64,000 nt of DNA from Branchiostoma lanceolatum. Lineage: Eukaryota > Chordata > Leptocardii > Amphioxiformes > Branchiostomatidae. Within the stretch, counting starts at the first letter, position 1, and each line of letters opens with the position of its first letter. Positions 1,090-46,631 of this stretch are shown here, one piece after another. The notes under the pieces were generated by a model, which searched no databases, was not told where the DNA came from, and saw nothing but the letters and a program-made list of their open reading frames with translations. The stretch covers positions 7,689,383 to 7,753,382 of the forward strand of contig NC_089732.1 of the NCBI RefSeq assembly GCF_035083965.1, read 5' to 3'. Made by a program: the position numbers and the translations under genes.

Positions 1090-1344
1090 GAAGCGATTGT
1101 TGACGGACAGCACCAGGCTAACGGACACGATGGCGGCCACAAAACACAGCCAGACCTACGGCCAGAACGATCGTACAAAAGATGGCTCTGAGCTGCTAAA
1201 CAATTTTATCAAGTACAGTCACAGACTGACAAAAAGCATTCTCCTACGTAGAGCCTCACCTGCGGCCTGTACCGTACCTTGGGAGGCTCTGCTATACCGG
1301 GCTGAGATTTTCACTTGTGAGCGTGACCTCTGAGCAGATATCAG

Positions 1345-1402
1345 CCAATCAGAGAATCGGCTTTACCTAACGAAAACATTTAGGAGATTCTCTGATTGGC
1401 TG
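1345..1402. repeat. Perfect 17-bp inverted repeat with CCAAT cores
   Basis: The arm cagccaatcagagaatc and its exact reverse complement lie about 23 bases apart in intron 10 of copy A. Each arm contains ATTGG/CCAAT. It could be the remnant of a small fold-back element or a paired CCAAT-factor site; nothing here decides between them. Confidence 0.6.
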
Positions 1403-1929
1403 AATGCTGGTTACTGAGTAGATCAAGGCCACGCCCACAAAAATGGGAAAGTCATGCTCTGCGTAGGCGTCAGGCGCTGGTAGGAGACTGACAAAACAAA
1501 GTACAGATGTATCAGATCTTAGACGTAAAAACAAATACCAAGTAAAAACTGCGGATTGACAACAAGGATACAAATCTATGATAATCAGAATAAACTTGTA
1601 ATAATGGAATAGACCTGTTAGAATGTTACGATTTATACCAGCCATGCAAGATAATAATGACTAAAGGAAGAACATGATTAAGTTGAACAGAAGGTATTTC
1701 TATACTTAAATAGTTTTTGCCGATGCAAAGGTATTACTTGCTTTCTTACCTTCTTAGAGAATGGCGCCATGAACTGGAACATGCCCGGAAGACGACGGTC
1801 CGACTTCTTCATGGTCAAGAAGTATCCGCGCGTACGCAGAGGGATGGAGAGCTGCATCGTTTTCAGACGGTGGGAGCGCATGGACATTGGGAACAGCACC
1901 AGATCATACTGCAACCAAGAGAAAAGATA

Positions 1930-2240
1930 AAGATAAGGAAGGTGAGGTGAAAAGGGAGGCCGTAGGGGAAGTGGGTTGTTATCCACTGTGTTTAGGGGAC
2001 AGTGTCGGAAAGCGGAGCCCATCCCACTCCTTCCACCGCCCGCTTTTACCTTCCCAACTAGTTAACTGAAGTCAGATACCAAATTTTACACGTAGGCGGA
2101 GTGAATAAAGTCGTGTTTAGTGTCTTTCCCAAGGACACAACGTCCAGCCCAGTCAGGAATGGCAGGAATTGAACCCGTGACATCTCAATCTCGTGTCGTG
2201 TCTGCTGGTCTAGCCACTCGACCATTCGACACCACGAAAA
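1930..2240 (-). mobile_element. tRNA-derived SINE
   Basis: On the minus strand the head carries a pol III box A-like segment (TGGTCGAGTGGCTAGACC) and a box B (GGGTTCAATTCC) about 40 bases apart. A body with the block TGTCCTTGGGAAAGACAC follows, which I recall as common in invertebrate SINEs, and then a tail rich in CTTTATCT. The 3' tail ends within about 20 bases of the 3' splice site of copy A exon 10 (1908), so the tail supplies most of its pyrimidine tract. Confidence 0.6.
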
Positions 2241-2420
2241 TCACGAGAAAGGATGAGGAAAAACAACATGTTTTGCTCTCGAAAGTAGTTGGATACATTA
2301 GGTCAATATTAATGCTGTGTGTCTTAATCACCCGGCTGCCTGGCAAAACTATAGCTAAGTTAGATCCCTGTTGGCGGTTGACTCTGTCACAGCGTGCTTG
2401 AAAATCAGTATACGAAATTA

Positions 2421-2657
2421 AGCCCCCCTCTCACTGGACCCGCGGCACGCTGGCGGCTTCGCTGTATCCTAAATTGGACTTGTGTTTCCCTTAACTTTAT
2501 AATGGGAATATCATTCAAAACGTACAAGTAACATTATGACCCAAAAGACAACAAGATTAAAGATATTAGTTTTTTCTCGATGAAATGCGTTGAGTGCTAT
2601 GTAAATGATCAGCCGCAGCGACGCCGCCAGCGTGCCGCGGATCCAGAGAGAGGGGCT
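2421..2657. mobile_element. MITE with about 37-bp terminal inverted repeats and TTA target duplication (PIF/Harbinger-like)
   Basis: The ends are inverted copies: AGCCCC(CC)TCTC, then CTGGA, CCGCGGCACGCTGGCGGC, matched on the right by GCCGCCAGCGTGCCGCGG and GAGAGGGGCT. TTA flanks both sides (2418-2420 and 2658-2660), which fits the TWA duplication of PIF/Harbinger transposons. The interior (about 160 bases) is AT-rich and non-coding. It lies in intron 9 of copy A, just below exon 9 in coordinates. Confidence 0.7.
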
Positions 2658-5485
2658 TTAGAATCGTAGGACGGCCTACGAAGAATTTCACCGCGCCTTT
2701 AGCGACTATAACCCACCTCTCCCGATTCTATTGCGCCTTTGTAGTTGGCCCCCATGGTTAGGTTCCAGGTGAAGTTTAACCGAGCCGCCAGCATGTCGGT
2801 CAGGTCCAGCATGAAGCCCTCGTACCGGTGCCGCCCGCGCAGGCCCTCCGCCTCGGCGTGTTTCCTCTCCATGATCCAGGGTTTGCTCTGAAAGGGAAGA
2901 TGGTCTAGAAAATATTTTTTTGGCCCAACATTTTACCAGAAATTCACCGTGGCCGACAGGTACAATGAGCAACACACACCTACTTTCGCTGCGTCAACAC
3001 ACCTATCTTACCAGACGAACACGCCTATTTTGGCTATGCACGTCGACACCTCTACTTTGGCTGCAGTGTACACACAAGAGGGGCCCGCCTATTTACCGGA
3101 ATACACTGGAATGCACAGAAAGAAGGGATAGAGTCTACCGAAATACAGTATGCTTTGATGAGTAAACATCGTAGATTGCTATATCTTGGTGAAAGGGCGT
3201 AGTTTTGCAGGTGCTCACTTTCAACGTCTGAAACATAATTGAATTCTTGTACGCCAATCAGTTGACCCCGTGTGCATTCCTTACTCACCAGTCTCCCAAA
3301 CACCTGGAAGTGCCGTCCACCGAGAAGACCGTTCATCTGCACGTACGAAATGGTGGTGTTCATGTCAACAGCGCCATCTGCCGTCCAGAACCCTACCTGC
3401 AACCCAAAAGATGAAAACATAGCTGAGAATATTGTGACCTTTTGATACAGAAGAGCAGGACGAACAGCAAGGAAGAAATTCTGATGAAGAAAATCAGAGT
3501 TTGAAAGGAAAGAGAAAAGGGAAATGAAATACCAAAATTCAGAAAAGATAGAATGCGCAGTTTATGTCTTCTTGCCTGTTTCTCTTGACCGTCGCTGTAC
3601 TCGCGGATGTAGATGGTGACGTCAGTTCTCCTGCCACAGTCGTCGAACGACACGTCCCCGCTGGCGCCACGAAACGTCACCTGAGAAGTAAAATGTACGA
3701 CGACTGTCATCCACCTTTTGTGTCAAGACAGTCAAATATTCGATTTTTTCTCCACAAATAATTCATCTAAATAAAGATGGAACATGTTGAAGAACAGATG
3801 CCGCAATGGTATTCTTTTGAGCATCCATACGCATTCAGACCCACCTTAGAACTTTGATTTTGTCGGCTGCAGTTTTCCAGTGTCCGCCAGCCTTCAGATG
3901 GTCTGTTGGTGTCTTGCTCTTCCAAAGAGGATAGTAGATCCGCCAGGACGGCCACTGAATCCCGGGCAAGTCGTGCTGTGTTGGACAATGAATCCTTACA
4001 CCGGTCCAGTCTGGACAGGTTTTGGCCAGGCCCACCCAGCTCGAACCGGTCCAGTTCCGTCGCGGATGGTGTTTCACCGGTCCGTTCCGGATCTGACCGG
4101 TTTGGTGTTTCCTCCGATCGGTTCAGATGCGGTGCAGACTGGTTCCCGACGGTCAGCATCGGGTCAGACCAGTTTGGGGTAGTTTTTGTGGCACTTTCAG
4201 GATACTGGCGAAGTAACGTGAACCGTGCTCCACTATGACGAAAACTGTCCAGTTGTTTCTGACTGGCATCCTTTTAGAACAAGATAAACATATTTAAGTT
4301 ATGAGATCAACATACATCAAGGACACAAATAATACCCTTGAAAAAATAAACACCTCCCACACAAGTATGAAATAAGCCCCAAACCCTTCGTTTCTTTGTA
4401 AACGTTTCTCCACCCCTCCCCCCGTACACCCACCTCATTTCTGCATCTTATTTGTTACCACTACTCCTTCTAGCAGTACTCACGAAGCTTGTGATGATCC
4501 AATGGCTTTGTGACGTCAGCAGCATTCTGTGGAAAGCCTGAGCAAAGGTAAAATACAGGAAAGGTTTAGATGTATAGACCAAAGACTGTGCGATAAAACA
4601 ATAAAACATGGTCCAATGACCTTTTTCATAACCAGCATACTTAACTCAAAAGTTTATGGTAATTCAATGGAAAGTTTGAAATTATATGGCTTATTCCCTT
4701 ACCTGGGTCAATAAAACGTTACCTGTTCTAATATGGCGTCAATGACGTCATCATCCGTCATCATCACGACATGGATCCTTCCGGATGTTCTGACATCAGA
4801 CAAGATGGCGTCCACCGAGTCTCTATCGGCCTGGGTGGCAACCTTAGCGGGAACTTCCCTGAACCACGTGTACCACCGTCTCGTTGTCACGATGTTCTCC
4901 ATGGCTTCAATGCATCGATAGAACTCTGAATATGAAAGAAATTATTTTCAGTCAGCCACACTTTTGTACGGTTATTTGTGTACTGAATAGTGTTGAAAAT
5001 CTGTTGATCTTGGCGGCTGGCCAATCCTATTGTGAAGCTTCGTAAATCGGTGCCCGCTCTCCTCTACAATTGTTATAAATCTGTATCATACTCGTTAACT
5101 TTATATATTATATCCTAACAAATCCCACTTACCCGACTGCTTGTTATATAGCACATAGGCTGACTTCCAGCCGTAAGCCTCCATGACGTCAATCAACATG
5201 GTTGCCAGGTGCTCTGGGGACGGGAACATGTCCAGTACCCTGGAGCGGAGAGTTGGTTCAGCCGGTCCTGCCTGGTAGGTGCGCACTGTCAGTGGTGGCA
5301 GCGATGGTCTTTCCGAACCTCCGCAGAAACATGGGGGTGGGATCAGGGGGTCCAGCAGAATCAGAGCTTGGAGAGAGTGTTGTTGTATAGCTGGAGTTGA
5401 CCAGGGGCAGACAAGAACAGTACATTATAAACAACAGACAACTTATAATGTAAAGAATGGTAAAAGGTAAAAAATGACAAACCTT

Positions 5486-5766
5486 GACGGCCGCGTGGCG
5501 CGTTGGATACACCCGATCCCTCGATCTCGGAAGTTAAGCAACGCGCGGTCCGGACAGTGCTTGGATGGGGGACCAACCAAGGACGTCCGGATTGCTGTAG
5601 CCTCACGAAGCTTTCCACGAAATCGTCTTCCGGGAGGGACGTAAAACGGGGGTTCCGTGCTCGAGGAGGTGCCTCGAACACGTTAAACAGCCTCATTACC
5701 CTACACATTGGGTACCTGCCTGTGGCACTGGCTGCAAATACACCTGATATTATTATTATTATTATA
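5486..5766 (+). mobile_element. 5S rRNA-derived SINE (SINE3-like)
   Basis: The first 120 bases follow 5S rRNA from end to end: GACGGCC, CACCCGATC, GATCTCGGAAGTTAAGCA (box A region), GTGCTTGGATGGGGGACC (box C region) and GCTGTAGCC at the end. A non-5S body (GGGACGTAAAACGGGGG and onwards) and an (ATT)n tail at 5747-5766 follow. The internal pol III promoter elements are largely kept. It is in intron 2 of copy A, opposite to the gene. A true 5S gene is unlikely, because the match is imperfect and a SINE body with an (ATT)n tail is attached. Confidence 0.75.
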
Positions 5767-6137
5767 TTGATGAAGGTTAGACATCCAGGTAATAAGATAC
5801 GCCAAAAAACAGTTACTCAGCAGCACTAGTGGATCAAGCAAAAGCATATCCGATTGCTTGAGCAACTGTTTTTTGGTGAAGTATGACATGATAAATTTCA
5901 GACCAGAAGCAATATGAGATCAAAACAACAAGAGTAGTTGTCAAAATAAAATCCTGGCCGCAATACTAGTATTCGACGACTCAACTGACTTACATTGATC
6001 CAGTGCGCATGCGCTGTCGTTCATTTCCACGGGAACTACTGAGACGATGGCGTCGCTATCCTGTCTGCTGTTCAGCTCCTTTGCGCTAGATGTCACTTCT
6101 GCAAGGTGGCATTCCTGATTTCCCGTGTGCACAACTC

Positions 6138-8970
6138 CTACAAAAACAAACGATATCGATCCAGTGTTTAAAACACTCCGTTTCATACTTCAAAGAAGAT
6201 CAAGAACAACTAATTTCATAAGTGGTAATTATAAGATCAAGATTGCGATGCACTCTTTAAGTCTTGTCAGATCTCTGTAGACGATCTTAGAATGAATAAT
6301 TGATAAGACGGATGATTAAAAGTTAGTTAAGTCTGGATAACATCAGTCGGTTTGTCATCATGAATCATTGATGTGTTTTCCGTAAGACCTTATCTCTACT
6401 TCTACCTGTAGTTACAGATAAAGACTGTGTAACATTAACTGATCACTCCGGGGGGTGAGAGATCAAATCTAGTTCTTCATCACAAAGTTTTCAAAACAGA
6501 AACCTACGTTATACGGCTGTCTGACATATCTGTTTGGACTGAAATCCGTATGGGTTAATGGATCTTCTTTTTTTATAGACAGCAGACAAGCAAAACCGTT
6601 CTAGTAACTATGTACACAAAATGTAGTTTCTTATTGCAGAGAGTATTTTACGCTGTGTAAATGACATAGAAGTGACCTAGGTTTTATATTGGAATACATT
6701 GCCTCGTAGCTCTAGGCCGTTATGCAAGGTAAATCTCCATTTTAAGCTCCTGTCCTGCCTTTCAACTACAGATCATACCCCAGTGTATACCTTACACAGC
6801 AACATTGCGCTACCTTGGTGCAGATTTGAACCATATGCATGTCCTTTTTAGTTGATGATATTTTACCCCTCCCCACTCAAACCACACAGCCTATGGAGCA
6901 AAATAAACCAGGCCAAGGGACATCTGAAAAGGGAGGAAACTCTTGCCACCGTGAAAGCGATTTTATCATATAGTAATAACACCAACCCGTAATCGTATCT
7001 CTGGAAAGTGGGCCGGTAGATTGGTTCATAATTAACTCACTGCAAGCTTTATCAAAGCCTCCAGAGCTTTTACAGCAAGCAGAAATGTAATTACAGCGCG
7101 GAAACACGAAGCTCTCAGAAACTGACTGAGAAAGTGGTAACACTGCCGTACTAAATAGGTACATGCGATAAGAAAACAAGGCGCTCGGTGCATCCTCAGG
7201 TCGGTGGTATGGTGGGTTTGCAGGGCAGTCTTTGTCTCGTATGCTAAAACTCCTTGGAGTTAGAGGTCTACGGCCCAGAAAGGCCATTTAAACATTCTGG
7301 AGGTAGTAGAAATGGCCTCACGTTGATTGTTGTCCCGTAGGGGGTGACCTCTACGTGACCCCTACCCCCTGCGGTTGCCGTGCTATTTGTGGGCCCGGTT
7401 GGGATCCCGAATATTCTAACTCCGACTTAAATTGAACGCGGGACCCGGTAACAAATAGACGCCGTCAGCTAGTCGTGCGAGCACCAGGAGGTACCCCCCC
7501 CCCCCCCCCCCTTCCGTACCCGGCAGTCCACCGGGACAAATTAGTGGCTTCGGGGCCCGGCCGGGAATACACCCCCTACGGACACCGGCGCAACTTGGGA
7601 CCAAAGCAGAAGTGACTGCTGCTTGCACACAAGTCGGGGAGTGATAAATCACGGCTGGGCCTCCCGGGCAAGGGTGTATGATTATCAAAGACCGGAAAAA
7701 CCTGATGACACTGGGTTCATCACTGATTAAGTGTCCATATGTTCAGCACTGTCTCTGGTGTGTATTGTACAGTTTTGAAGAATTTTCTGCGCAGCGGAGG
7801 CGAGCAGAGCGTAATTCGGCTCACACAGCCTCCAGTGGCATACCTGCAACTTTGCTAAAAATGTCACACTACTGAAATATTTATCAACTTCGAACTTTAA
7901 CAGAAAATCCCTATATCCCTATGTCACTGCAAAATGTCAAGAAGGCAATTGGGTTTAGGATTGAAACGAAGGAAGCCAGACTCCCTTACGAGACCATTCA
8001 TAGCCCAAGGCAATTCTAAAGTTATTCAAGCATTTTCCCATCAAAGCATTATCCATTGTGTGGTGGGGGAGGGGGACACCGTCCTGTACTAGGCCATCTT
8101 TGTATTACACCGCGTATCGTGTAAAGTTGTCCATCTAACACAGGGATGGCCACGGAAACTTCGTGATAAACTGTACTGTCTTAAGAGATTAGCACAACAA
8201 TGACTCAGGCTCAGGATCTTCTCCATCTTTTCACACGATGGAACCCTCAGCGATTATATACTTTAGTCGGCACTTTAGATGGTGATAATCTTCACCTGAT
8301 ATGAAGATTTGTTCCACTTGAGATTTCGGCATTCTCCACTGAAAGGTATTCTAATCTAGGTCACCAATCTCTGCCACAATTTGTGTTCTCCATGATCCCT
8401 CACTGCACGAAATAACGTTTAAAGCAAATGCATTAACGTAGTATTTTGCGAGTTCAGTAGAAGCTTTGCTTCCATTGTAACACAGAACATGGAAACTGAA
8501 TTTCGACCATGTTTCAAAGAAAGCACTGCACAAAGTCATATCTTTAAGCACATCTTAAAACATGCGCGTGTGCTGTTCTTCTTCCAAACATGTAGCCTTT
8601 TCGTGTGCTTTATGGTATGCTTAAAGATACTGTTTTGTGCAGTGCTATCTTTGAAAAATGGTCGAAATTCAGTTTTAATGTTCTAGCTGTGTTACAATGA
8701 AAGCGCAGCTTGTACTGAACTGGAAAAAGTTACGTTAACACATTTCCGTAGAACGTTATTCGCTTTACAATTTACTAGGATATAGATATACTAAGACACT
8801 ACATGGTGCAGCATTTCCAAAATGTAGAAGAGTAATAAGGACTACTGCCAAGTCATCAAGTGAACACACATCCTTCATACACTCTATGTACTATTTAGCA
8901 TTCAGTCAAAGAGAAGGAAAGTCTTCACTCTTGTGTACCCCGCGTCATAGGTTACACAACTCGGACTCAC
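6138..8970. other. Intron 1 of copy A: no gene, GC-rich block and fold-back element
   Basis: No exon is supported here. Positions 7310-7690 form a GC-rich block (CCCCTACGGG-type motifs, a run of about 18 C at 7493-7510) unlike its AT-rich surroundings, probably an old repeat of unknown type. A long fold-back element lies at 8408-8765. The remaining sequence is unique-looking and AT-rich. Confidence 0.5.
8408..8765. mobile_element. Long fold-back (hairpin) element, arms about 150 bases
   Basis: The left arm (about 8408-8560) and right arm (about 8600-8765) are imperfect reverse complements. Paired blocks include ATTGTAACACAG with CTGTGTTACAAT, GAATTTCGACCAT with ATGGTCGAAATTC, AAGCACTGCACAAA with TTTGTGCAGTGCT, and TATCTTTAAGCA with TGCTTAAAGATA. 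The two outer ends pair as AATAACGTT with AACGTTATT. The pattern fits a non-autonomous DNA transposon. No coding capacity is seen. Confidence 0.7.
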
Positions 8971-9216
8971 CCACATGGATATCCCTCGCGTTGCCATGGC
9001 AACAGATGAAAAGGAGCAGGTACGTCACTCCCAAGAGGCTTCTGTTGGAAAGGCACGCCCTCATCACTGCACCTGGTACATGCGTAACTGCTGCAGGTGG
9101 ATTTCAAACTCACGTCGTTGGTGGAGATTACTGTGCAGGTGGTGTGTTGGGGATATAACTGTAGATGGTTGGTATGTGAGCAGTGACTCCGTCCTGCAAA
9201 GGAAAATGTAGTTACA

Positions 9217-9317
9217 TAAAGACAATTCAGACTCTACAAATTGATAAATTTGGGAGATTTACTATCCGGAAGTGAATCTCCGAATTTTATCAAGTTGTAG
9301 AGTTTGGATTGTCTTTA
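9217..9317. mobile_element. Fold-back MITE, TAAAGACAATTC family, short copy
   Basis: The terminal inverted repeats are TAAAGACAATTCAGACTC and its complement ending in GATTGTCTTTA. The arms continue through ACAA, TTGATAAA and GGAGATT. The same termini and arm sequence recur at 56855-57087 in STK11, so this is one family. Confidence 0.7.
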
Positions 9318-9789
9318 TACGTATACATTGTTTACCTGAACATAGAACCTTCATAAATGAAAATGTAATTAGATTACTGTAATGTTTTATCCAAACAATG
9401 TCATCGAATTTGCAAGTGGCATTGAAGATGTCTGAATCTCTTTGCAAAGATCGAAACATGGAGTGTGCATTGACAAGGGAAAAAAACCCCGAGTCGTATA
9501 ATATCGCAAACAGAATTATTGAATTGGCAAGCGGAGAGTGAAACGGACTGAGAGTCTTTACGCTTAAACAAAATATATAGTTTGAACGAACAAAGATCCC
9601 ACAAGCAATATGGTCGAGCAGCGTCACTTGTGATTATTTGATCAGTCGTCCGACGACCAGGGAAGGCCGCGAGAAGTCCCATAATCGACCTTAACCTTCG
9701 TCTTTCCAAAACCTTCATGTATACTATATATCATCGCAATCCACTCAGACATTCTCAAGTTTTTCCTAGCCAAAATATCAGGAAATATG

Positions 9790-9860
<71 letters not shown>
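9790..9860. repeat. (CA)n microsatellite, about 35 units
   Basis: An uninterrupted run of AC dinucleotides. The open frames across it are artefacts of the repeat. Confidence 0.97.
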
Positions 9861-9862
<2 letters not shown>

Positions 9863-30600: not shown

Positions 30601-33600
30601 AGCCCTACTGTTTGGGTTCCGGAAGTCTGCATGTGAAACTTCATAAATAATAGGAACAAATGAAAATTATATGTCCTGCTTCAACTGCAAGGAACAATGT
30701 CGGTACTCCCGTCGTGCAGGATGAGTGAAGTCAAAGAAACTACTCTAAGCAAAACGAGTGAGCAGGAGAACGATACAGCTGCGGGCAAAACGAAAGAGTG
30801 AGGGCCTACCTTCTTCGACTCTGCTGCTGCTACGATCATCATCCGGTGCTTGCTACCAACTGTGATATCCCACGTGAAGTTCAGGCGGGAAGCCAACATC
30901 TCCAACATGTCCACAAGAAATCCGTGGTACGGAGTGGAACCAACCTCACTACTTTTTCCTGGTTTCTTCATGAAGAATGGTTTGCTCTGTGAAATAGATT
31001 TAACATTAACTATTGACCGATTGAAATAAACGGATCCAAATGAGCAACACTGGATACAAGTTTTCAAGTTGATCCTAGAATAAAAGAAGTGAAACAAAGA
31101 CTTAAACTAATTCACCAGAGCGGTGTAGACTCGGAGATGTCGTCCCGAGAGTAGGTGAGTGTCGATTGGTTTCTGCCATCCAGGCTTGAATCCAGTCGTG
31201 CCTTCTGTGGTCCATGTCCCCACCTGTAGACAGAGATGGTATATGCATCAGGTTCAAGTAAGTCAGCCAAGGTGGCTTCCTTGCCGGATTTCCGGACTTT
31301 TATATAGATTTTCCCTTATATCCATCAAAAGACACCATGTAATGATGACGATTTTGCAACTCAACGTATATGATTTGTTGTGACTGACTTGCTTCAATCC
31401 TCCTTGCAGATATTCATCGACGAAGACAGTCACGTTCTTTCTCTTCCCACAGCTGTCAAACGACACGTTGCCGCTTTGTCCAGAGAAGTTGTCCTGGAAT
31501 ATCACAGGAAGGCGTTAGAATGTTAACAATCTGGTCAACTGACATTTCGTACATTTTCACGTCCCAGACATTTCCCCAACAACAAGCGGTAGTACCTCCT
31601 GTGTCTCTTGGTTACAGCAGGTTACTGTGTCATATATATGCAGCCTCAGTAGTAGGGATACAAAATTCGTAGCCGTGTAAACTGTTGATTTTTACATGTC
31701 ACATCCCTAATTGCACTCTTTGTAATTCAGATCTTAAGGGAAGATCTATAGGTAAGATGAAACAGTCCAACAGAGTCTTACCTTGTACATATAATTTGCC
31801 ATCTCTGCACGGCTGCCTCCTTCACTCGTGGCCAGATAAAGAGAGTCCTTCCTGTTCGAGCTTCGAGAGTATCCCGTCCCCAGGTCCGGAGACAGACTGG
31901 TCACCAACTTGACCGCATCCAAAGCCAGCCGCATCCTGTATGTCAGCTGTCCATTAGGCGAGCCACGCCCCGAGGGCGGGACTGTCTCAGGGAAGGGGCG
32001 GAGCAGGGTCAGGTGTGCTCCACTGCTCCGTGCGCTCCGCAGCTGAGTTTCCCGGACATCCTGCAGAAATTGGAGTGGGAATCTGCTGACTTATATTTTT
32101 ATCATCAGCGGAGTAGTGCTGATTGTATTGGTTTCAAATGATTCCCAATAGGCAATACAAACAGCGTACCACCCCAACCTACCACACTTCCTAATATCTC
32201 TTCATCTTGTTTAACAAAGATGTTAAACCGGCCGACCAGAAGGCATGCTTGGTGAGGAAATCTTTGAAACAAAACTTTCAAGAAGGTATGGTAAATCGAA
32301 TCGAAATAAATTTTTCAATAGTAGATCAGAACAGTGCCAAATTTCGTCTAATCTGTACTCACGAAGCTTGTAACAATCCAGTGGCTCCGCGATGTAAGCA
32401 GCAGCATATCGGCAGCCTGTCGGGACGACACAACCTTGTTACGTGCATAAACCAACCAATACCCGAGAGCCGGATGTTGACAACAGCACCAACATAAACA
32501 CATTGATAAAAACATAACCAATATAAGATTCCTTTTAAATAGCACAAATAAAGATGTGGCTCGCCGTTGAATATTTGACCATATCTTTGGTCTTCTTCAG
32601 GATGCTGACCTGATTGTGGTCCGGTCGCCAATTCAAGGCTGAGTTGATTCTAATTGTTTTCATAATGTTAAATGCCAACACAAATATCATTTTGATACAG
32701 ACATATCAATCTCTGACCTTGTCCAGAATGACCTTCACTACATCAACACTCGTCATCAGAAGCACATTCCGCCCAGCAGTGCTGACGTTATACAAAATGG
32801 CGCCCGGACCGTCGCCGTCCTCCTTGTCAGCTGGAATCTCCTGGGACCAGAGATGAAACCTGCGGGAGGCTGCTTCATTGAGCATGGCTTCAAAGCAGCT
32901 GTAGAACTCTGTAGAATGGTGTGAGTAGTCATGATCGTATCGGGTAATCATTGACATTTCAGCGGCGCTGTCTATGTGATATGCAAACATGGTCAAACAC
33001 CACACTGCCAATATGATACTGCTTGTAAGTCAACATCAAATTAACAATGCTCATTCAAGTGGCCAAGCTAAGTTAAGAAAATAGACTTGTTCAGCCAACG
33101 GACCGGAGTTTGCACAGCAGTTAGGTAAGTGAAATATGCTTCCTTCGCCGTTTGGTAGCAAGCTGTTGCATCACGGACCACCTAGTACTGGTGCATTTAT
33201 TCATCGCACTGGTATTGGATACTTCCCACTCACCTGACCGTTTGTTGTACAGCATATAGGTCTCTCTCCACCGCAGGGCCTCCATGACATCAAACAACAT
33301 GGTTGCCAGTTGCTCTGGGGACGGGAACATATCCAGTACCCTGGAGCGGAGAGCTGGTGTATCCGGATCCGGTTGGTACATGCGCACAACCACTGGGGGC
33401 AGCTGTGGTCCGTTTGGAACTCCGCAGGTACAAGAGGAGGGTAGGGGGGCCATCAGAATCAGGGCGTGGAGGGGGTGCTGATCACGAACTGGAGAGCAAG
33501 AAGTCCTGTTCATACTCTTAATCTCGGTAGAGATTGCTTGCAAATGCTGGCACTTGGAGAAAATTATCACTATCTCAGTTACAACAGAGGGTCATCAATC

Positions 33601-34767
33601 AACCGACATGGTCTGCAGTAAGCTAATGAGTAGTTACCTATCGAGTTGATTGTCCTCTCTTTTCACATGCCCGTTTTTCATATTTAGGGAGCAGGAGAGG
33701 TTACTGGGGCATAAAAACGTATGCAAATTCCGACCATGTTAATGGCCAGCTGGGACACAATATGGCAGCGAAGACGGCTGGAGATATTTGAGATACAACT
33801 TCGGGTTCAGCCGTTGAACTCCCTATAGGATGACACCATGACTGCTATGCTACTTTTTTCTCGGTATGATATTCTCTCGTGTCATTTACGTTCTTGTCTT
33901 GCTACGCACCACTATTCACCACGTGAGAATGTCCACCCACCTTGCTGAAGGGGACAGGCCGTTGTGCTTTTGTCAAGCCGAAAACTGGTCAGCATCAGGT
34001 CATTGCTGCTATTGAGACCTCGGGTACTAGATGTCATCGCGGCAAGATAATCCTCTTCCCCGTCGTTATAGACAACACCTCACACAGGAAAAAAACAACT
34101 AGTTAAGAATTGGTAACATGGTAAGAGCTTTCATTCAAGTTTCATGGTGATTGTCTGCAGAAACTAGACTTTATTCTGTGATAAAGGCTTATATGATACA
34201 TTCCAGACAGCAATAGATACGCAACGTTTAGTAACTCCAAATTCCAGTAGAAAGGTTAGATAGTGTGGCTGTTTTTTAAATACACAGCATGTTGTGAAGT
34301 GATAGAAATGATAAAGCTTTCTTTCAACTTCCAGCATCGTTGATTAACTTGGTTTACATATAGCTGTCTCACGATACAGAATACAAAAGTATGATTACCA
34401 AATAAACCCCACTTGACGTGAGGTACATGTAATAGTGTCCATAACAGGGTTCTTGGCTTTCCCTTTTGTGCTTGCGTATTTTGAGGGTTTTTTTTCTGAT
34501 TGAATATCAGTTCTAACTGAATCCGAGTTCTAACATGTTTAGGCTGGGTGACTTGCAAACCGGGTACTATATCAGAGATGATATACAATTAGATAACCGC
34601 ACAAAAATAAAACATCCCAGACAAGAAGCCCGCTAAGTAGGCCAAAATGTAACTTTAGTTCACCTACCAACGGTTAACCTCTTTCCGTCACCATGGCAAC
34701 TGCAGAGCAACGCCAGGAAGATCCCCATCGTCCAAGCAGGAGGACCATGGCAGCTCAGTGCCGCCAT
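27625..34767 (-). CDS. Ionotropic glutamate receptor-like channel, copy C
   Basis: Fifteen exons, high to low: 34668-34767, 33941-34078, 33234-33488, 32718-32908, 32363-32416, 31782-32060, 31389-31493, 31116-31223, 30810-30986, 30260-30427, 29959-30110, 29576-29694, 29048-29230, 28205-28457, 27625-27835. Together they give 2493 bases (830 residues) with consistent phase. The signal peptide is MAALSCHGPP then WTMGIFLALLCS. The amino-terminal domain includes SRVLDMFPSPEQLATMLFDV and the AADMLLLTS exon. S1 has YHGFLVDMLEMLASRLNFTW and PLSMRTGFPG. M1 is FVAAAVGVSLALAANG. The pore is FGAAVCQGQEFLPRSSAGR, with Cys at the Q/R site. Then come SYTANLAAFL, S2 with ISPTSYEYEILNERCDM, M4 GIFYYLMIGIATSILVF, and a Gly-rich tail ending GGGGV. 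This is the most compact copy, with no large insertion. Gene structure and phases equal those of B and D. Confidence 0.9.
28655..28712. repeat. (GT)n followed by a G run
   Basis: TG dinucleotides, then about 16 consecutive G and GGGTTGGGTTGGGG on the plus strand, in intron 13 of copy C. Another G run is at 29762-29774. The G tracts could form quadruplexes; assembly length here may be unreliable. Confidence 0.85.
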
Positions 34768-36788: not shown

Positions 36789-39700
36789 CTACACGCCACC
36801 ACCTTCTTTGGCAAGCTCACTGGAACGTCCCTTATTGCACCACTTCTTGAACTTAAAATGCACCCATTCCATGGCGAATACCAAAATGGAGGTTCCTATC
36901 CCAATCATGAGATAGTAGAAAATCCCATCCAATTGTTCCATACCCAGCACGCCATCGAGTGTTGATCCCGTGTAACATTTGTACTTCTTCATGTTAAACC
37001 ACCTGTAAAAGGATGGAAGAAAAAATCTTCAAATTCCAGTAGCTTTGTGTGCCACAATAAAGGGGAATCTAGCGACGATAGGAGTGTAGCACCAACCAAA
37101 ATGTCCTAATCATGACCCAGGTTTGAACCGGGATTTAACCCAGTTAGAAACATATTGGAACCGCGAGTTCAACTGTAAGGCTGCTACCAGTTGAGCTATA
37201 GGGACATCCATACACCTTGATGTACATACATCATAGTATGTTGTTTTCCTTAACAGCAACATTTCTATCAACATAAAATCACCTATTCTCAAGGGCGTCC
37301 ATCTGCCCGTCCTGTGCCATCTTCATCAGAGCCAGGTTGATCTCGGTCCGGTAGGGTGAACCGACCGGAAACGGAAGTGCGGCCTGATACTTGAAGAAGT
37401 ACTCGTCGGTGAGGATGACCATGTCACACCTCTCGTTGAGGATCTCATACTCGTAAGTTGCGGGGGAAAGGAAGATGAAGTCGCCTTTAGCAGCGCGCTC
37501 AAACGCCTGCCGGGATTTGTTCAGGAGGGCCTCATCTGTGAAGAACACGATGCAACGACTTCATCACTCAGAACTCAAGAAAACAATCAGTGATAACTGC
37601 ATGTGTGGTACGATGGCGGAATGTATTTCAGTGCTTTCATAAAACAAAAGAATTCAATGACTCTCCTAAACATACCATTGTTATGGTCATTTGATCATAT
37701 GTCTATGTGATGACTAGATACTCGTGATTATATCTGGACAATGAATGGCGGGGACCAGCTAACGTTACTCAGCAAGACTAAGGTCCATTTAAAAGAATAA
37801 TGAAAACTTAGAGGAAGAGATACGTGTTGGTCACACCGTGAATACAGTATCATTTGAAAATGTTTCCCGTATACTATGACACTTTTCTCATTGTGCCTGA
37901 AAAAGGCATCAACGCCAATGTTATCTACAAACTGAAATGTGAAGAACCGAACTGCAATAACATGTACATTGGGGAGACAAGTCGACCACTAAGCCAAAGG
38001 TTCAATGCACATTGCAGAAAGAGCGCTAACTGCTACTCCTCTGCCATTTTCTACCATCTAAAACACAACCAGGGACACTCATTCAATCTCGAATCCACGG
38101 ACATCCTAGATCGTCAAGCCCGCGCTGGTTCGAACGGGGAGTTAGAGAAGCAATATACGAGAGGATGTACAATCCTGCCCTCAACAGGAAAGGGGGTCTA
38201 CGCGTTGAACTTTCAGGTACTTGGGATAATGCACAGTTATTTAAACATCAAATTTCACATGCACAGGTTTGTTAACATACATGTAAAGCTGATTCTACCT
38301 GAATTCTTGTCAAGATATCGTCCAATGGTCTTAAAAGGCTCCTCCTGAGACTTCTTCAAGAACTTGACGAGGGTGTATCCCTTGTACGTCCCGTACGGCA
38401 CGTCCGTCTGTCCGGCCAGATCGGTCAGGCTCCTGATACTCCGGTCTGCTGAAGTCTTGGACAGGAAGGCTGCCAAGTTGGCTGGAAAAATACAACGTGT
38501 ATATACATATCTAACGTCCAATGAAAATCTGCTATTCGATGCCCAAAGTGGCCGGACACTTCCACAACGTTTATGGCTATGGCTCTCTAGTAACGACATC
38601 AATACACAAGCCGCTTTCCAACTCAAAATTATTCCTGAAGTATCTTTCACGAGAGTGAATCAATAAGTAATGCAATGCTCACTTTTCATCGGGTTGAAAT
38701 TTGGCAAAAAAGGTTAATTCTTGATCTCATTTTGTTGATCAGATTTTTATGAGCGACAGAGAGATTTGTCGGAACATCAGTTCCTCTGGATCTGACCGAC
38801 TTAAAAGCACTCTAGGAAGCTGACATTACACCTGTATAACGGTTCGGAGAGCTCATATCTCCATGAACTATTCTGATTATGCAAATGAATGCATCATTTA
38901 CATAAGCTATGGTTGGTCATGAACACCTTTAACTAACTTACACATGTCGCCATATTGGCGGTCCAATCATTTACCAATTAGATTAATTATGTCACGCTTT
39001 TGCATAGATTATGCAAATTAGGAATAAATTTCTATAATTTATATCTGTTAATGCTCCACCTATCATAAACTACATATGTAACATGTATCTGAGACCTATA
39101 ATGGAAAACACTGCAAATATAGATTTTCCTCATCAATTATGCAAATTGAGTCCGAATTTGCATAATTTACATTTCATTATGTGCATCTCTGTCTAAGCTA
39201 TACCTACATACTAAATATGGAAATCCGTTGTTTTTGTTCAGTTATTCTTCTTGAAGTTATTCTTCTTCGAGGATTTTGACAAAAACGCCCCTGTAGTTCC
39301 AGAGCAAGCTGCTAGGGTGACCAAACCTACACCACTTCTTCTTCCTTACATCACAAGCTATCTGCTACCAAAAAATTAAGACCAGTCTGTGGCTTACCAG
39401 TGTAAGATGCGACAATAACCAGTACCAAGAACCACCAGGCACCGGTGAGCAGTCTTCCTGCGGAAGATCGGGGAAGAAACTCCTGCCCCTGACACACAGC
39501 CGCTCCAAAGGTAGACCTACAAGAACGCAAAAAGAGTCTGAATAAGGCTGTCTTTTATTTAAAACATCAAGGTCTTATCTTGGATTGACAACGGCGTAAG
39601 AATGAATGGCTTTAATCTCACTGGAGTTAACACTAGCGAAGAGTTGTTCATCAAAAGCTGCTCATGTCAAGATGTCAGGCTCACTGAAGGGTGGTTGTCC

Positions 39701-42700
39701 ATATATGAACACACATGGGTCCCACGTCAAAGGCTGCTGTTATTACGTGTAAGCTTAACTTAACTACGGCGCGGTCAGACTTGTCGTAGATTGTCGTACG
39801 ATTTTCATGCCTTTGAATTTTCATAATCTCCAAGCAGATCTGACGGTTGCAATGACCGTATCCAACTGGCAAAACGAGTTTTTATTGCAACCGGTTTGCC
39901 AGTTGGATACGGTCATTGCAACCTTTAGATCTGCTTGGAGATTAGAGTTTTCAAGCAGGGTGTGGCAGAACCAAAACCCGACAAGGATAAAAGACAGCCT
40001 TCTCAGTAACAACACAGCTGAAGTTTCTACAAAACGTGCATTACTATCCCAAGAATACCCCCAGTTTGCGATCGCACGACTTATGTAACCGGTAACCGAG
40101 CCCTTACCAGAGACTGTTGCCGAGGCTGAGGTTGTCAGCTTTGTCTTCCGACACCTCTCCCCTTCCAGCGGCTCGAGCCCACTCGTACGGGTTCAGACGA
40201 CCGTTTGCCGCCACGACAAGACTTACTCCCACAGCGGCGGCCACAAAGGAGAACCACACCTGCATTCAACACACGTGGAAGATACAACGATCTTCTGATT
40301 CGGCAGACAATGTTGTTAACATGAATTTGAAAGTTGATGAATGTAGTAAAACTGACAGAATGACCTGACCAATTGGCGAGATGGATGAAAACGTTTTGAA
40401 ACGCACCTGTGCAGAAAATGGTCCAATGAATTGGAATATGCCTTCACCGCCATGACGATTTGGCTTCTTCATGGTCAGAAAGTAACCACGAGTCCGTATG
40501 GGGATGGAAAACTCGACTTTGTCAGAGCCAGTGTACCCGGTGCGCATGGAAAAAGCGACCAACAGCAAGTCATACTGTTGGCATAGAGAAAATCATTCGC
40601 TCTTGTGGTAAACCGATTAAGAGCGAAATGGTAACAATTCTAAATCCATTTCTACTTTCTCCAAGCAGTGGAAGATGAATGCATAAACCTCATATATATA
40701 CTGTACAGCACAAACTTTCAGCGTCTGCTAGGGATAGGGTCCAGACGGACCCCATTAATTTTTTGCTCAAAAATATATTCTTATGGTTCTTTTTGTGATT
40801 AGTATACCATATATCTATGAAGAAAATATTGACAAATTTTGGTGTATATAATTGATGACCGGTAGTGTAATTTATGCAACAACAAAAAAAGAAGAGCATA
40901 AAACTTACGCATTTTGCTAAAAACAATTATTATCTTCGACTGATCTATTAGTCTTATTAGAAAAAAAACAATTCTATAAGGAACGAATGGACATCATATG
41001 TCCTGCTTCACCGTTGGTATACCCGTGCAGGAGAACGATACAGCTGCGGGCAAAACGAAAGAGTGAGGGCCTACCTTCTTTGACTCTGCCGCTTCTATAA
41101 TCATAGACCGCCTCCTGCTACCAACCGTGATATCCCAGGTGAAGTTCAGGCGGGAAGCCAACATCTCCAGCATGTCTACAAAAAATCCGTGGTACGGAGT
41201 GGAACCAACCTCAGCACTTTTGCCTGCTGTTTTCTTCATGAAGAATGGTTTACTCTGTGGAGCAAGGTCGATTTGACATAGATTCTTAAGTGTCGCGGTA
41301 AACGTAGCCAATTCAGCAACCCTTTTTTTGGCGACGCCTCAGGGGCGAGCCAAATTTTTACTATATTGTGTGCAGATTGCAAGAATTCTAGGAATTGTAC
41401 AGGAATGTGAAAGTCCATGGGACGATAACTCAAGAATGCCTGGATGCATTGTCTTCATATTTTGTAGGTGGGTAGGTCTGTGGGAGAGCTTGTAATGATT
41501 GGATTTTGGGCCCCCTAGCAACTTTCTATGGTACTGCAGGGGAACTCTCACTTTTCAAATCTCGTCTTCTGAACATGCTATAGTCATGATTTTTAAGTGG
41601 CGGATAGCTCTTTGTTAGAAAAATATGTCCTGTAGATTTGGACCCCCTAGCGGCTTTTTTTGGAACTGCAGGAGCTGATTTTGACTCAAACTTTGAAAGA
41701 GAATAACGCAAGAAGGGGATGACAGATCATCATAATTTTTGGTGTGTAGATAGCTTAAGTGATGATTTGCATAATGATATATGCTAATTAGGCAAATCAA
41801 GTTCTGATTTGCATAATTAATGAGGACAGGTTATAAATCAGCTGCATTCTATTATAGGACTCTCAAACACATGACATATGCAACTGAGAAAGAGATAGAT
41901 ATCGATAGATATCAATTATGCAAAATGATACTTAATTTGCATAATTAATGACAAAATACTATAAATCCATAGTGGTAAATGATGGGGATTTCATTTTTGC
42001 ACCATTTGGAAGTTAAGTAAATGTGGCCACTATTAGACACAAATCTTGCATAGAGCGCCTCATTTACATAATTTATGAGGAAATGGTACGATATCTTTTT
42101 TTGTGAAAACAATATATTCATACATTGGACAACTTGTGTTATTTTGGTAGAGAAGGTGATCGACTGATATGATTTATGCCGCTTATGCGAGGTCCTTATT
42201 TGCATGTGGGCTAAAAACGAAAACGTTAACAGAGACCACCGTCGCCATGGCAACATCTTTTTATGTTGCCAATCTTGTTTAAATTTAGAAGTACAGTAAC
42301 AGAGACCAAACACAAGGACACTGCACTGCACTGCACTTAAGTACAAAGCTTTTATCACAGTGTCACAAAAAGCTAAGCAATATCAGACAAGGACAAACTT
42401 AAGCAAGTTTCATCAAACAAAAAGTAGGATAAATCATATATGACTTAACTAATATGACATCAAACTGAATCCAATGACATATACAAGCGGTATAGAAATT
42501 AATACAAATACAAATACAAAAACAAATATAGCGAATTACAGCAATAATTGACACCCCAGGTGTTCCTGAAAGAAAGAAGGAAAGAAAGAAAGAAAGACTC
42601 TTACCAGAGTGGCAAAGACGCGAAGATGCCGTCCCGAGAGTAGGTGAGTGTCGATGGGTTTCTGCCATTCGGACCGGAACGTGCACATGCCTTCTGCGGT

Positions 42701-45700
42701 CCATATCCCCACCTGCAGACGGTAATGATTTATGTGAATTCAAGTTCCAATCAGCCAGTCAAGACTATAGATTGTGTAACTTAATGTTGAAATCCTCTTT
42801 CTTACACAGATGCAAATATGTATTGTCATCTATTCCTTATTCTCTAGATGATAAATAAGGAAGCTGCATGTAATGATGAAGAATTCAAGATGAAGTACAT
42901 GATGTGATGCTGCTCACCTGTTTTGTTTCCCCTTGAAGATATTCATCAACAAAGACAGGCATGTTCTTTCTCTTCCCACAGCTGTCGAAGGACACGTTGC
43001 CGCTGTATCCCGAGAGGTTTTCCTGGAAAATCATAAAAAGGCGTTAGAACCCTTACAAGAGAACTCTCCCCATGCACATAATACCTGCCGTGTCCATTGG
43101 CCACATGGCAAGCAATAGTCCCAGACATACCGCCCCAGTAGAAGTAGGGACAGAATTCGTAGTCGGCCTGAAACGTCTTCAACCAGGCAGACATCCGAGT
43201 TGACCCCAGTTTATCATGTATCCATCCGCATGACGCAACAACTAACATATGTCCTTACGATAACTTATCTCTTGAACTGACCAAAATTTGACCAAAATAG
43301 GAAAGCTTAGACCCTACTTTTTTTACCCAAAATGTCTCCAGATTGGGCCACAAGTTGCAAAAAAAGAAGGATTTCAAGGATTTTAGGGTGGCATATAATC
43401 GTAATCCCAGTTTTGGCACTCCACTGCGCAATGCAACTCTGACGTCTGCCCAAGAAGCTGACAGTTGTTACCTGTCATATGTAACATTGTTTGCTTCATT
43501 ATCTGCATCTTGATCTTGAGGTACGAATGAACAGTCCATAAGAGTCTTACCTCGGATATATAGCTTGTCATCTCTGCCTGGCAGCCCCCCTCTCTCGGGG
43601 CCAGGTAAAGCGAGCCCTTCCTTTCCGACCTCCGAGAGTCCGTCCCCAGGTCCGGAGACAGACTGGTCACCAGCTTGACTGAATCCAAAGCCAGCCTCAT
43701 CCTGTACGTCAGGGGTCCATCAGGCGAGCCACGCCCCCAGGGTGGGGCTGTCTCGGGGAATGGGCGGAGCAGGGTCAGGACCGCTCCACTGCTCCGTGCG
43801 CCCTGCAGCTGACTTTCTCGGACGTCCTGAAGAAAAAGATAAGAAATCTGACTTTCCTAGACATATCTTATGTATTTTGCATCGAAATCTTGACATACAT
43901 TGCACAATACATAGTTAAACTTAAAGCTATTCTAAACAAATCTGGGTGTGGAGGCGTCTCAATTTTTTCAAAGTTAGATAGCACCAGACTAATGTATACT
44001 TACGAAGCTTGTCACAATCCAATGGCTCTGCGATGTAAGCAGCAGCATGTCGGCAGCCTGTCGGAAAAGGACGACATACGTATTGATATACATTGCAAAT
44101 GTCTATCAGTTAGGAATAAGGTCATGTAACAGTCTGGTAAGTTAAACAGACTATGATGTCACTGGATGATTTGTAGAATTCAAAGTGGCAAGCAATAAAG
44201 AAGTCCAAATCTCTGACCTTGTCCAGAATTACCCCTACGACGTCAGCAGTTGTCACCAGAATCACGTGCTCCCGTCCGGCTATGCTGACGTCATAGAGCG
44301 CGGCGTTCAGAGCCTCCTCGTCCTTCTTTGTAGTCATGGCAACTGGAACCTCCTTAGACCATAGGCTAAATCTGCGACGGGCTGATTCGTTGAGTAAGGC
44401 TTCAAAGGACCTGTAGAACTCTACAAACCAGTGGGAAAATCAATTGTTTTATGGTCTGCAGTCATCCTTCCTTAACAGGGGTTACAAAGCGTACAGTTTG
44501 GTAAACGTAGGGCTAAATACTTTGGACTAATGCTTCTAGCTATTGCCTCTTGAATCTTAAACTTACATATCATATATCTAATAAAAAACGTATTTGTCAC
44601 ACAACAGATCATAATGACTTGTCATAATCTGAAGATATTCAAACAATCTTAATGCTGCTTTAAAAAATCTCAAGCTACTTTGAAAAACATATCAAAATAC
44701 TTGAAAGGGGTGCTAAGAAACCTTGAAAAGATCTCAAGATGTTTTCAAAAGATCTTAAGATGCTTTGAAAACATCTCAAGAGGGTTTGACAAAAGATCAG
44801 AAGACAATCTAGTTCTGGTGTATCTATCTACCGTACAGTACTGGTATTGGATACTTCCCACTCACCTGACCGTTTGTTGTACAGCATATAGGTCTCCCTC
44901 CAACCCAGGGCCTCCATGACGTCAAACAACATGGTTGCCAGTTGCTCTGGGGACGGGAACATGTCCAGTACCCTGGAGCGGAGAGCTGGTGCATCCGGAT
45001 CCGGTTGGTACATGCGCACAACCACTGGGGGCAGCTGTGGTCCGTCTGCAACTCCGCAGGTACAAAAGGAGGGGAGGGGGGCCATCAGAATCAGGGCGTG
45101 GAGGGGGTGCTGTATAGGAACTGGAGAGTGGGAACTGGATAAGTAACTAAACTCTACTCTCCAAGCAGAGGGGTATTTTGACGTGTTTTGAGGCGTTTTG
45201 TCGGGCTTTCTACTTTGTCATTCAATAATCCGGCAGGTTTTTGACGTGTTTTAGGCGTTTTTGTCGGGCTTTCTACTTTGTCATTTTTCATTGAATGACA
45301 AAGTAGAAAGCCCGACAAAAATGCCTAAAAACACGTCAAAAACCTGCCGGAACCCCTCCTCTGCTTGGAGAGTAACTAAACTCTATCTATCCACCCATAC
45401 ATCTAATATATATCCAACGTTACATGTATAGTGATAAAGACAAAGAGAAAGAAAGAAAACAGATTTTGATCATGTTACATTGTACACATATAGATATTTG
45501 GATGACACTGGCATTTCTATTACAGTACTGTTAGTGTAACGTTTACACTACGCATATCTTACGACGCACGAATATTTACCTACCTTGATAAAAGGGACAG
45601 TCTGTTGAGCGGGCGTCAATCTCAAAATTGAGCAGTGTCAGGTCCTTGCTGCTGTTCAGGCTTTTGGCGCTAGATGTCATCGCTACAAGGACATCCTTTT

Positions 45701-46631
45701 CGCCACCGTCGTGAACAACACCTAAAACCATCCCGGCAGAAATTGCAATGAAGTCATAAGACATCACTTAGGTCTTAACATTGTATGAATATAAGACAGG
45801 CAACAGTGTGCAACCTGTAGTTAATCATATCATAAAACAAGCCAGTCACTTAAGAGGTTATCAAGTACACAGTATCCTCTTCTACTTCTAGACATCTAAA
45901 CCTCCTAAGATGGTTCTTCCATATCCATTACAGAGACTTTCGTAACTTTAAGAGCAACTTGACAGTGGTCTGTAAGTCTTGTCTTATACGTCACGCATCC
46001 ATTTTGCATATCTCATTTGCCTTCGTGCCCGAATGGCTAAAATGACACTTTTTGAGTACGTTCCCGGCTGCGTTATCACGCCAAAGATATCCTATTTTAT
46101 TCACGAGGAAAATAGCCTCTAGAATGGTTATAAAATCACATGAAATAGCAACTTTTAGCCTCATTTTAATATCTTAAATATCTGTAAGGATCAAACCTTG
46201 GCTGTACCGATTAATACGTCAGACTCTACGTATAGTACATAAGTCAAAATATTTCTCTTCGACACTTTCATTGCTTTGAAAACAGCACACAAATTGGCAA
46301 TTTTAATGGGAGTAGAAGATACACGACCTACTTTAAGGAACAACCACCCAAAGCAAAGAATCAACAACGACAAAATTAACCAGAAGATAAATAATGATCT
46401 TGTGACACAACCTAGAAAGTACTTACCTGGCAGACGTCTCGGAAACTACTACCTTCCTCAGGGCCAGAATGGACTCTACTACTCCAAAAGTTTATCTTTG
46501 AGTAAGAAACAATTTTGAAAAGTTGCACACAAATTTTACTCACCAAGCTTAGTTCTGTCGCCATGACAACCGCAGAGTATTGCCAGGAAGATGATAACTG
46601 ACCAAGGAGGGAATCCGCTGGGACAGGTCAT
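36789..46631 (-). CDS. Ionotropic glutamate receptor-like channel, copy D
   Basis: Fifteen exons, high to low: 46544-46631, 45584-45721, 44866-45120, 44218-44420, 44004-44057, 43551-43826, 42918-43022, 42605-42712, 41075-41254, 40407-40574, 40108-40259, 39398-39516, 38299-38481, 37283-37535, 36789-37002. They sum to 2496 bases (831 residues), in frame throughout. The signal peptide is MTCPSGFPP then WSVIIFLAILCGC. The amino-terminal domain is about 30-409, S1 410-525, M1 from 526. The pore is FGAAVCQGQEFLPRSSAGR (Cys at Q/R), the M3 gate SYTANLAAFL, S2 with LSPATYEYEILNERCDM, M4 GIFYYLMIGIGTSILVF, tail ending EGGGV. The S1 motif that is usually P-L-T reads AFS here, so the conserved Pro is also lost. 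Exon 4 is 203 bases as in copy A, against 191 in B and C. Introns hold a tRNA-type SINE, a Penelope fragment, two copies of a fold-back MITE and two AT-rich repeats. Confidence 0.9.
37102..37207 (-). mobile_element. tRNA-like SINE fragment
   Basis: On the minus strand TGTCCCTA at the start can pair with TTAGGACA at the end. There is a box A (TAGCTCAACTGGTAGCAG) and two box B-like segments (GCGGTTCCAAT and CCCGGTTCAAACCTGGG, the second with a T-arm stem). The spacing is too long for a normal tRNA. It is in intron 14 of copy D, next to exon 14. Confidence 0.45.
37854..38205 (+). mobile_element. Penelope-like element fragment with GIY-YIG endonuclease
   Basis: The plus-strand frame encodes VIYKLKCEEPNCNNMYIGET, then RPLSQRFNAH, an N-terminal half of a GIY-YIG nuclease of the type fused to the C-terminus of Penelope reverse transcriptases, followed by HLKHNQGHSFN and DILDRQARAG. 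No upstream reverse transcriptase is present, so it is a short 3' fragment. The frame then reads into antisense of receptor exon 13, which has no meaning. It lies in intron 13 of copy D in antisense. Confidence 0.75.
38880..39390. repeat. AT-rich interspersed repeat (copy 2 of 3)
   Basis: It contains repeated TTATGCAAATT/TTTGCATAATT motifs and a 3' block (GACAAAAACGCCC, AGAGCAAGCTGCTAGG, CAAGCTATCTGCTACC) matching 11340-11470. It ends 10 bases from the donor side of copy D exon 12. Confidence 0.55.
39825..39943. mobile_element. Fold-back MITE, ACTCTCCAAGCAGAGG family, copy 2
   Basis: An almost complete hairpin. The left arm starts AATCTCCAAGCAGATCT and includes GGTTGCAATGACCGTATCC. The right arm is its complement (GGATACGGTCATTGCAACC) ending AGATCTGCTTGGAGATT. 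The loop is about 20 bases. Flanks TGAATTTTCAT and AGAGTTTTCAA look like a decayed 11-base duplication. It lies in intron 11 of copy D. Confidence 0.8.
41330..42095. repeat. AT-rich interspersed repeat (copy 3 of 3)
   Basis: Two near copies of CCCCCTAGC(A/G), GCTTT/ACTTT, GGTACTGCAGG/GGAACTGCAGG (about 41510 and 41645) are followed by repeated TTTGCATAATTAATGA motifs to about 42080. It is in the large intron 8 of copy D. The orientation is opposite to the copy at 38880. Confidence 0.5.
44636..44812. repeat. Degenerate minisatellite, about 20-25-base unit
   Basis: Repeated variants of GCTTTGAAAACATCTCAAGA on the plus strand (AGATCTCAAGATGTTTTCAA, AGATCTTAAGATGCTTTGAA and others), in intron 3 of copy D just below exon 3. 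Confidence 0.7.
45156..45373. mobile_element. Fold-back MITE, ACTCTCCAAGCAGAGG family, copy 3
   Basis: The ends ACTCTCCAAGCAGAGG and CCTCTGCTTGGAGAGT are exact inverses. The perfect 11-base duplication AACTAAACTCT flanks it at 45145-45155 and 45374-45384. The interior has a near-perfect hairpin (TGTCGGGCTTTCTACTTTGTC with its complement) plus a partial direct duplication of the left arm. It lies in intron 2 of copy D. Confidence 0.88.

Follow-up and report, generated by a model that had tools for sequence, protein, structure and literature searches.

Four ionotropic glutamate receptor (iGluR)-type genes, here called copies A to D, lie head-to-tail on one strand of a 64,000-nucleotide stretch of the Branchiostoma lanceolatum genome (assembly GCF_035083965.1, contig NC_089732.1, positions 7,689,383 to 7,753,382 of the forward strand; hereafter the window). 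We are inclined to read them as a tandem cluster of AKDF-branch subunit genes, most likely of the Phi (GluF) class. Glutamate or glycine is unlikely to open their products, which most likely act as ligand-insensitive partners of other subunits. Glutamate or glycine alone most likely does not open these products because the channel parts are intact and constrained, while the amino-acid pocket is not. The receptor class and its unusual pocket were known already (PMC6307864); the cluster and its mosaic history are added here and, judged by titles and the opening lines of abstracts, no paper among those listed in literature searches describes this cluster.

Cluster Organization and Gene Models

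All four copies are carried by the minus strand, in the transcription order D, C, B, A, and a self-comparison of open frames shows one series of conserved segments recurring there four times. The head-to-tail arrangement proposed in an earlier sequence-only reading of this DNA is thereby confirmed. Plus-strand matches in the self-comparison were set aside as antisense shadows, the coding frames being the minus-strand matches. Gene models were obtained by splice-site modelling with phase continuity. In these predicted models, copies B, C and D have 15 exons each, without internal stop, and encode 823, 830 and 831 amino acids. They have their donor phases in common (1,1,1,0,0,0,0,0,0,0,2,1,1,2); exon lengths are equal in 8 of the 15 and differ by multiples of three in the other 7, in line with the earlier claim of 15 exons with the same phases and nearly the same sizes. 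Exon 13 is among the eight equal-length exons because its donor in D was set by hand to the site homologous to that of B and C (183 nt), splice scores alone having given 201 nt, 18 nt longer. The canonical junctions are partly so by construction, since acceptors were limited to AG and donors to GT or GC in the search.

Copy D (36789–46631, minus strand) is supported by the gene model, a GluA2 profile match and Pfam domains, and its start codon at 46631 is the end coordinate of the cluster as first delimited. Its exons, from 5′ to 3′, are 46631–46544, 45721–45584, 45120–44866, 44420–44218, 44057–44004, 43826–43551, 43022–42918, 42712–42605, 41254–41075, 40574–40407, 40259–40108, 39516–39398, 38481–38299 (with the homology-set donor), 37535–37283 and 37002–36789. 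Copy C (27625–34767, minus strand), supported by its gene model and Pfam domains, has exons at 34767–34668, 34078–33941, 33488–33234, 32908–32718, 32416–32363, 32060–31782, 31493–31389, 31223–31116, 30986–30810, 30427–30260, 30110–29959, 29694–29576, 29230–29048, 28457–28205 and 27835–27625. Copy B (14841–25170, minus strand), with the same two kinds of support, has them at 25170–25068, 24746–24609, 24005–23754, 23159–22969, 22671–22618, 22328–22062, 21844–21740, 21618–21511, 20996–20817, 17959–17798, 17315–17164, 16938–16820, 16480–16298, 15714–15462 and 15045–14841.

Beyond 47 kb of the window, a per-exon search gave weak matches only, the best of them (E 0.009) being 19 residues long and lying in a minisatellite. 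Scanning stop-to-stop frames for motifs failed to single out the genes, probably because an intron splits SYTANLAAF between SYT and ANLAAF. When three spacers were compared with the B, C and D exons, there was no match in nucleotides and a single weak one in protein (E 0.089), in the spacer behind D. Spacer blocks downstream of D and C (35924–35545 and 27007–26629) match each other at 76% over 392 nt and include a short, faintly exon-14-like frame; behind B, just a neighbouring block of about 100 nt (14097–13995) is in common with these spacers. An exon-14 relic behind C and D (26831–26712 and 35748–35629) was considered and is not claimed.

Conserved Channel, Altered Ligand Pocket

A profile of B, C and D matched 371 distinct PDB sequences at E values up to 0.001, the best 60 of which are AMPA and kainate receptors, headed by GluA2 (E 6.6e-80), with a match that spans from inside the amino-terminal domain (ATD) to the membrane segment M4. 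Pfam detects Lig_chan, ANF_receptor, SBP_bac_3 and Lig_chan-Glu_bd in all three copies (in C, Lig_chan at 1.2e-33 and ANF_receptor at 7.8e-13). Given that profile E value and these Pfam matches, the resemblance to iGluRs is not due to chance. Searched by itself, the first lobe of C reaches GluK2 only at E 0.0002, and is therefore strongly diverged.

The whole iGluR plan is present in B, C and D: ATD, two-lobed ligand-binding domain (LBD), M1, pore loop, M3 with SYTANLAAF (9 of 9 residues in each copy) and M4. M1, M3 and M4 exceed a simple hydropathy threshold in all three; by the same threshold, which is not a signal-peptide prediction, the N-terminus stands out in D only, together with a stretch at residues 82–100 of that copy. 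In D, exons 9–10 (40407–41254, minus strand) encode the first lobe of the ligand-binding clamshell, exons 11–12 (39398–40259, minus strand) encode M1, the pore loop and the start of M3, and exons 13–15 (36789–38481, minus strand) encode the remainder of SYTANLAAF, the second lobe, M4 and a short tail. GluA2 and GluK2/3, the best-matching solved relatives from ATD to M4, have PYEW after M1, SYTANLAAF and the acid four residues behind the Q/R site in common with B–D. Among the reference receptors of the tree, PYEW occurs in GluA2 and GluK2 but in none of GluD2, GluN1 and GluN2A.

The amino-acid pocket is another matter (residue numbering on GluA2). Position 485 reads Tyr, Phe and Tyr in B, C and D in one alignment and Gly in the profile alignment, with Arg in neither, and position 705 carries no acid in any of the three, reading Ser in one alignment and Pro in the other. 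Position 653 is Tyr, 654 is Thr, and 655 is Ile, Ile and Leu in B, C and D. GluA2 and GluK2, unlike B–D, have Arg485, Glu705, Tyr450 and Gly653. All four copies lack the stretch with position 450; because this gap sits within exon 9, a missed small exon was rejected as its cause. At the Q/R site (586), where GluK2 has Gln and the edited GluA2 chain has Arg, B has Ser and both C and D have Cys, so no copy has Q586, and Glu follows at +4. Copy A does have Arg485, its second lobe falling outside the window, and since this most diverged copy keeps the arginine and B–D do not, a loss of Arg485 within the array is suggested. An arginine near position 482 in all four copies was rejected as a shifted Arg485 because A has both.

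The three open copies are constrained. NG86 omega (dN/dS, the ratio of nonsynonymous to synonymous divergence) is 0.38 for B and C, 0.39 for B and D and 0.41 for C and D, with bootstrap upper bounds of 0.47–0.51. By halves, it is 0.37–0.45 in the ATD and 0.36–0.38 in the LBD with the transmembrane domain (TMD), so there is no sign of positive selection at this scale, as judged by omega only and by no formal test. In exon 4, the B–C pair has a dN (0.05) above its dS (0.02), on few sites.

Phylogenetic Position

An eight-row tree of B, C, D, GluA2, GluK2, GluD2, GluN1 and GluN2A was rooted with the two NMDA receptors. It unites B, C and D at 100/100, and their clade, with a long stem (1.57), falls on the AKDF side. 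These three copies are thus not placed apart, and the local expansion of iGluR-type channels claimed before is supported. The clade of GluA2 and GluK2 excludes B–D at 98/97. Seven groupings were asked, six of them submitted to the approximately unbiased (AU) test, and all were chosen after the tree was seen. Sisterhood of B–D to a single receptor is rejected for GluA2 (p 0.012), GluK2 (p 0.011), GluN1 (p 0.004) and GluN2A (p 0.003). The absence of Arg485 and of an acidic 705, together with the rejected sisterhoods, argues against AMPA or kainate membership, and the rejection of GluN1 or GluN2A alone, in a tree without GluN3, argues against clustering with the NMDA receptors. The tree alone is compatible with a place of B–D on the AKDF stem, on the Delta side or next to AKDF.

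The M1–M2 loop of B–D has the length of that of GluK2 and is 3 residues shorter than that of GluA2, without insert. This bears on the class, since an insert in this loop marks Epsilon proteins (PMC6307864).

Copy C as a Probable Mosaic

Copy C is best read as a mosaic, B-like in its 5′ part and mostly D-like in its 3′ part. Of 582 informative coding sites, those in exons 1 (26/29) and 4 (49/57) favour B=C, whereas those in exons 9 (30/48), 10 (34/49), 12 (26/28) and 15 (52/72) favour C=D; exons 3, 5, 11 and 13 favour no pair clearly. As few runs were found in none of 10,000 shuffles, and as long a run in 13 of 10,000. dS by exon ranges from 0.02 (exon 4, B and C) to above 1 for some pairs in exons 1, 7 and 15. 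Introns agree in outline: introns 1–4 favour B=C at 302 of 546 sites and introns 8–14 favour C=D at 479 of 1009 (chi-square 92.6), the two sets having been chosen after the coding pattern was seen and introns 5–7 (199 sites) standing outside this test. Over all 1754 intron sites, 0 of 10,000 shuffles were as low in runs. Only the ends of intron 9 entered the comparison, and identity is only 40–60% in many of the intron alignments, so single sites are noisy. Two observations speak against the mosaic: the 75 fourfold sites alone give a weak signal, with runs not significant (737 of 10,000 shuffles; longest run 409 of 10,000), and introns 8 and 9 taken singly do not favour C=D. Such a mosaic is what conversion or unequal crossing-over between tandem copies would be expected to produce.

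Copy A and Reverse-Transcriptase Frames

Copy A (1084–9064, minus strand), modelled by homology to B–D and splice sites, is disrupted. It is much more diverged than B–D (dS about 1.6–1.7, saturated). Exons 2–10, at 6137–5994, 5390–5133, 4925–4723, 4537–4484, 4270–3845, 3680–3576, 3396–3289, 2887–2717 and 1908–1750, are in the same phases as in B, C and D. The start of exon 6 was chosen by hand, by homology, and gives 426 nt compared with 267–279 in the other copies. Exon 7 has a GC donor (3575–3574, minus strand) where B, C and D have GT. Exon 1 is likely at 9064–8971, a candidate that ends in phase 1 and, like its counterparts in the other copies, continues into exon 2; shuffling that 4.3-kb stretch 100 times produced a like candidate 3 times. 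The match of A to the first ten exons, as claimed earlier, therefore holds for exons 2–10 and extends to exon 1 as a candidate.

Exon 11 starts at 1155 and keeps its acceptor and about 72 of about 152 nt, homology stopping at about 1084; an open frame then continues to position 1. This frame (1–1083, minus strand), which runs off the left edge of the window, carries a reverse-transcriptase domain (RVT_1, PF00078; E 9.2e-7; its 29.2 bits fall just short of the Pfam cut-off, 29.6). We infer that the insert starts directly behind the exon 11 remnant, although the recognizable RVT_1 part covers only residues 311–369 of 385. The simplest reading is a LINE-like (long interspersed nuclear element) insertion into exon 11 of A; any exons 12–15 of this copy would lie left of position 1, as would the far end of the insert. 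Copy A is probably dead because its exon 11 runs into the reverse-transcriptase frame, and of the four genes first reported, three are open and the fourth was apparently disrupted by a retrotransposon. A second reverse-transcriptase frame (19367–20728, minus strand; PF00078, E 1.6e-34) lies in intron 9 of copy B, which measures 2857 nt.

Flanking Sequence

Upstream of the cluster, an exon of an STK11/LKB1-type kinase is found at 56493–56780 (minus strand; PDB match to STK11, E 2.7e-19), and a frame at 58582–58535, judged by eye, looks like a further piece of this gene. Palindromes resembling miniature inverted-repeat transposable elements, with arms of 31–98 nt that are 76–100% complementary, occur at 8411–8760, 9205–9329, 39824–39944, 45196–45330 and 56862–57080, the third and fourth lying in introns 11 and 2 of copy D. 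A minisatellite at 55082–55474 has about 10 copies of a 40-nt unit, and an acidic, Asp/Glu-rich, low-complexity open frame of 141 codons runs over a GAT/GAG repeat at 50151–50576 (plus strand).

Discussion

The trait set of B–D points to an amphioxus-type Phi subunit because it matches the traits printed for that class. According to the survey of Ramos-Vicente et al. (2018; PMC6307864), Q586 is absent from every Phi subunit, changes preventing the binding of amino acids (485/705) are particularly frequent in amphioxus Phi (GluF/Grif), and Tyr653 occurs in Branchiostoma proteins, with Grif1-2 carrying it and being well expressed. All three open copies lack Q586 and show the 485/705 changes and Tyr653, on the same overall iGluR plan; the pocket changes are common in the class and not required for it. 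Phi membership is inferred from printed traits and not from Phi sequences, so sequence identity does not enter the comparison. The same survey describes SYTANLAAF as weak in hemichordate and echinoderm Phi. We found in it no description of a tandem array, of a missing 450 stretch or of inter-copy exchange, nor the word "tandem" in its main text (PMC6307864).

Two other classes compete with Phi. B–D may instead belong to "group II", a set of uncharacterized bilaterian AKDF receptors from molluscs, annelids, cephalochordates and Ptychodera (PMC12226733); we consider this unlikely, even though the group takes in cephalochordates and the tree cannot separate stem positions within AKDF, as the 485/705 changes, Tyr653 and lack of Q586 are printed for amphioxus Phi (PMC6307864), group II not having been compared for them. 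Still less probable is that B–D are amphioxus Epsilon receptors. Tyr653 is found in some Branchiostoma Epsilon proteins (Grie5-8; PMC6307864) and a B–D clade outside AKDF is not rejected, but the Epsilon-marking insertion is absent from the M1–M2 loop, the best 60 of the 371 PDB matches are AMPA/kainate receptors and PYEW is shared with just these. The class, which the sequence-only reading had left open, is in this way narrowed by the missing Epsilon insert, the rejected sisterhoods and the matching Phi traits.

Several results weigh against this assignment and the function drawn from it. Phi, Epsilon and group II AKDF sequences are absent from the eight rows of the tree; B–D join GluA2+GluK2 in the free tree at only 57/61; and the AU test retains B–D both with GluD2 (p 0.272) and with the NMDA pair, outside AKDF (p 0.333). 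Phi has also been reported from lophotrochozoans (PMC12226733). In the pocket, the exact substitutes at 485 and 705 are uncertain between the two alignments, and the combination of a lost Arg485 and Tyr653 may just as well point to a new ligand.

From the channel parts, B–D would be expected to form subunits of tetrameric cation channels, whose altered pocket would keep glutamate or glycine from opening them in the usual way. It is reasonable to hypothesize that they are most likely ligand-insensitive partners in mixed tetramers with ordinary AKDF subunits, where they would set permeation and leak; assembly, partners and currents are all extrapolated from the gene models. As for the history of the locus, the array would have been born by tandem duplication, exchange between copies would have made C a mosaic, and a retrotransposon would have broken A.

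Alternatives to the partner role are homomers that would be constitutively open or gated by some other ligand. A leak role comes a close second, on the example of a placozoan: Trichoplax AKDF1, an AKDF receptor whose acidic 705 is replaced as in B–D, conducts a constitutive leak current (PMC12226733). In AKDF1, however, residue 705 is Tyr, and ligands, above all glycine, block the receptor (PMC12226733); B–D, unlike AKDF1, also lack Arg485 and have Tyr653.

A further possibility is suggested by the insect ionotropic receptors (IRs). These are iGluR channels that often lack the glutamate-binding arginine, often form tandem arrays and mostly have no ATD. B–D would then be chemoreceptors for non-amino-acid ligands, with the channel kept and each tandem copy tuned to a different one. 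It is consistent with this that 485 and 705 are lost under purifying constraint in a tandem array. But B–D, compared with IRs by general features and not by sequence, have an ATD and find their best PDB matches among AMPA/kainate receptors; omega is low in both halves and, exon 4 of B and C excepted, gives no sign of positive selection at that scale. The B. lanceolatum iGluR genes examined in the published survey, except Grie5, are enriched in the nerve cord (PMC6307864). A sensory role finds no support here; we regard IR-like chemoreceptors, though possible, as improbable, and as equally improbable the bolder version, in which the array has left amino-acid gating altogether and its constrained, neighbour-exchanged copies answer non-amino-acid cues as a chordate counterpart of insect IR chemoreception. 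It is more improbable again that all copies are pseudogenes on the way out. Copy A is disrupted and ligand residues are lost; against this, frames are open in all three of B–D, omega is well below 1, and SYTANLAAF and M1–M4 are intact.

Ligand-insensitive partner subunits of the AKDF branch thus remain our preferred reading of B–D. The window provides complete gene models for receptor subunits in which the pocket chemistry is gone and the channel is kept. These models open the way to a direct test of whether such subunits set leak and permeation in mixed tetramers or, alternatively, answer another ligand.

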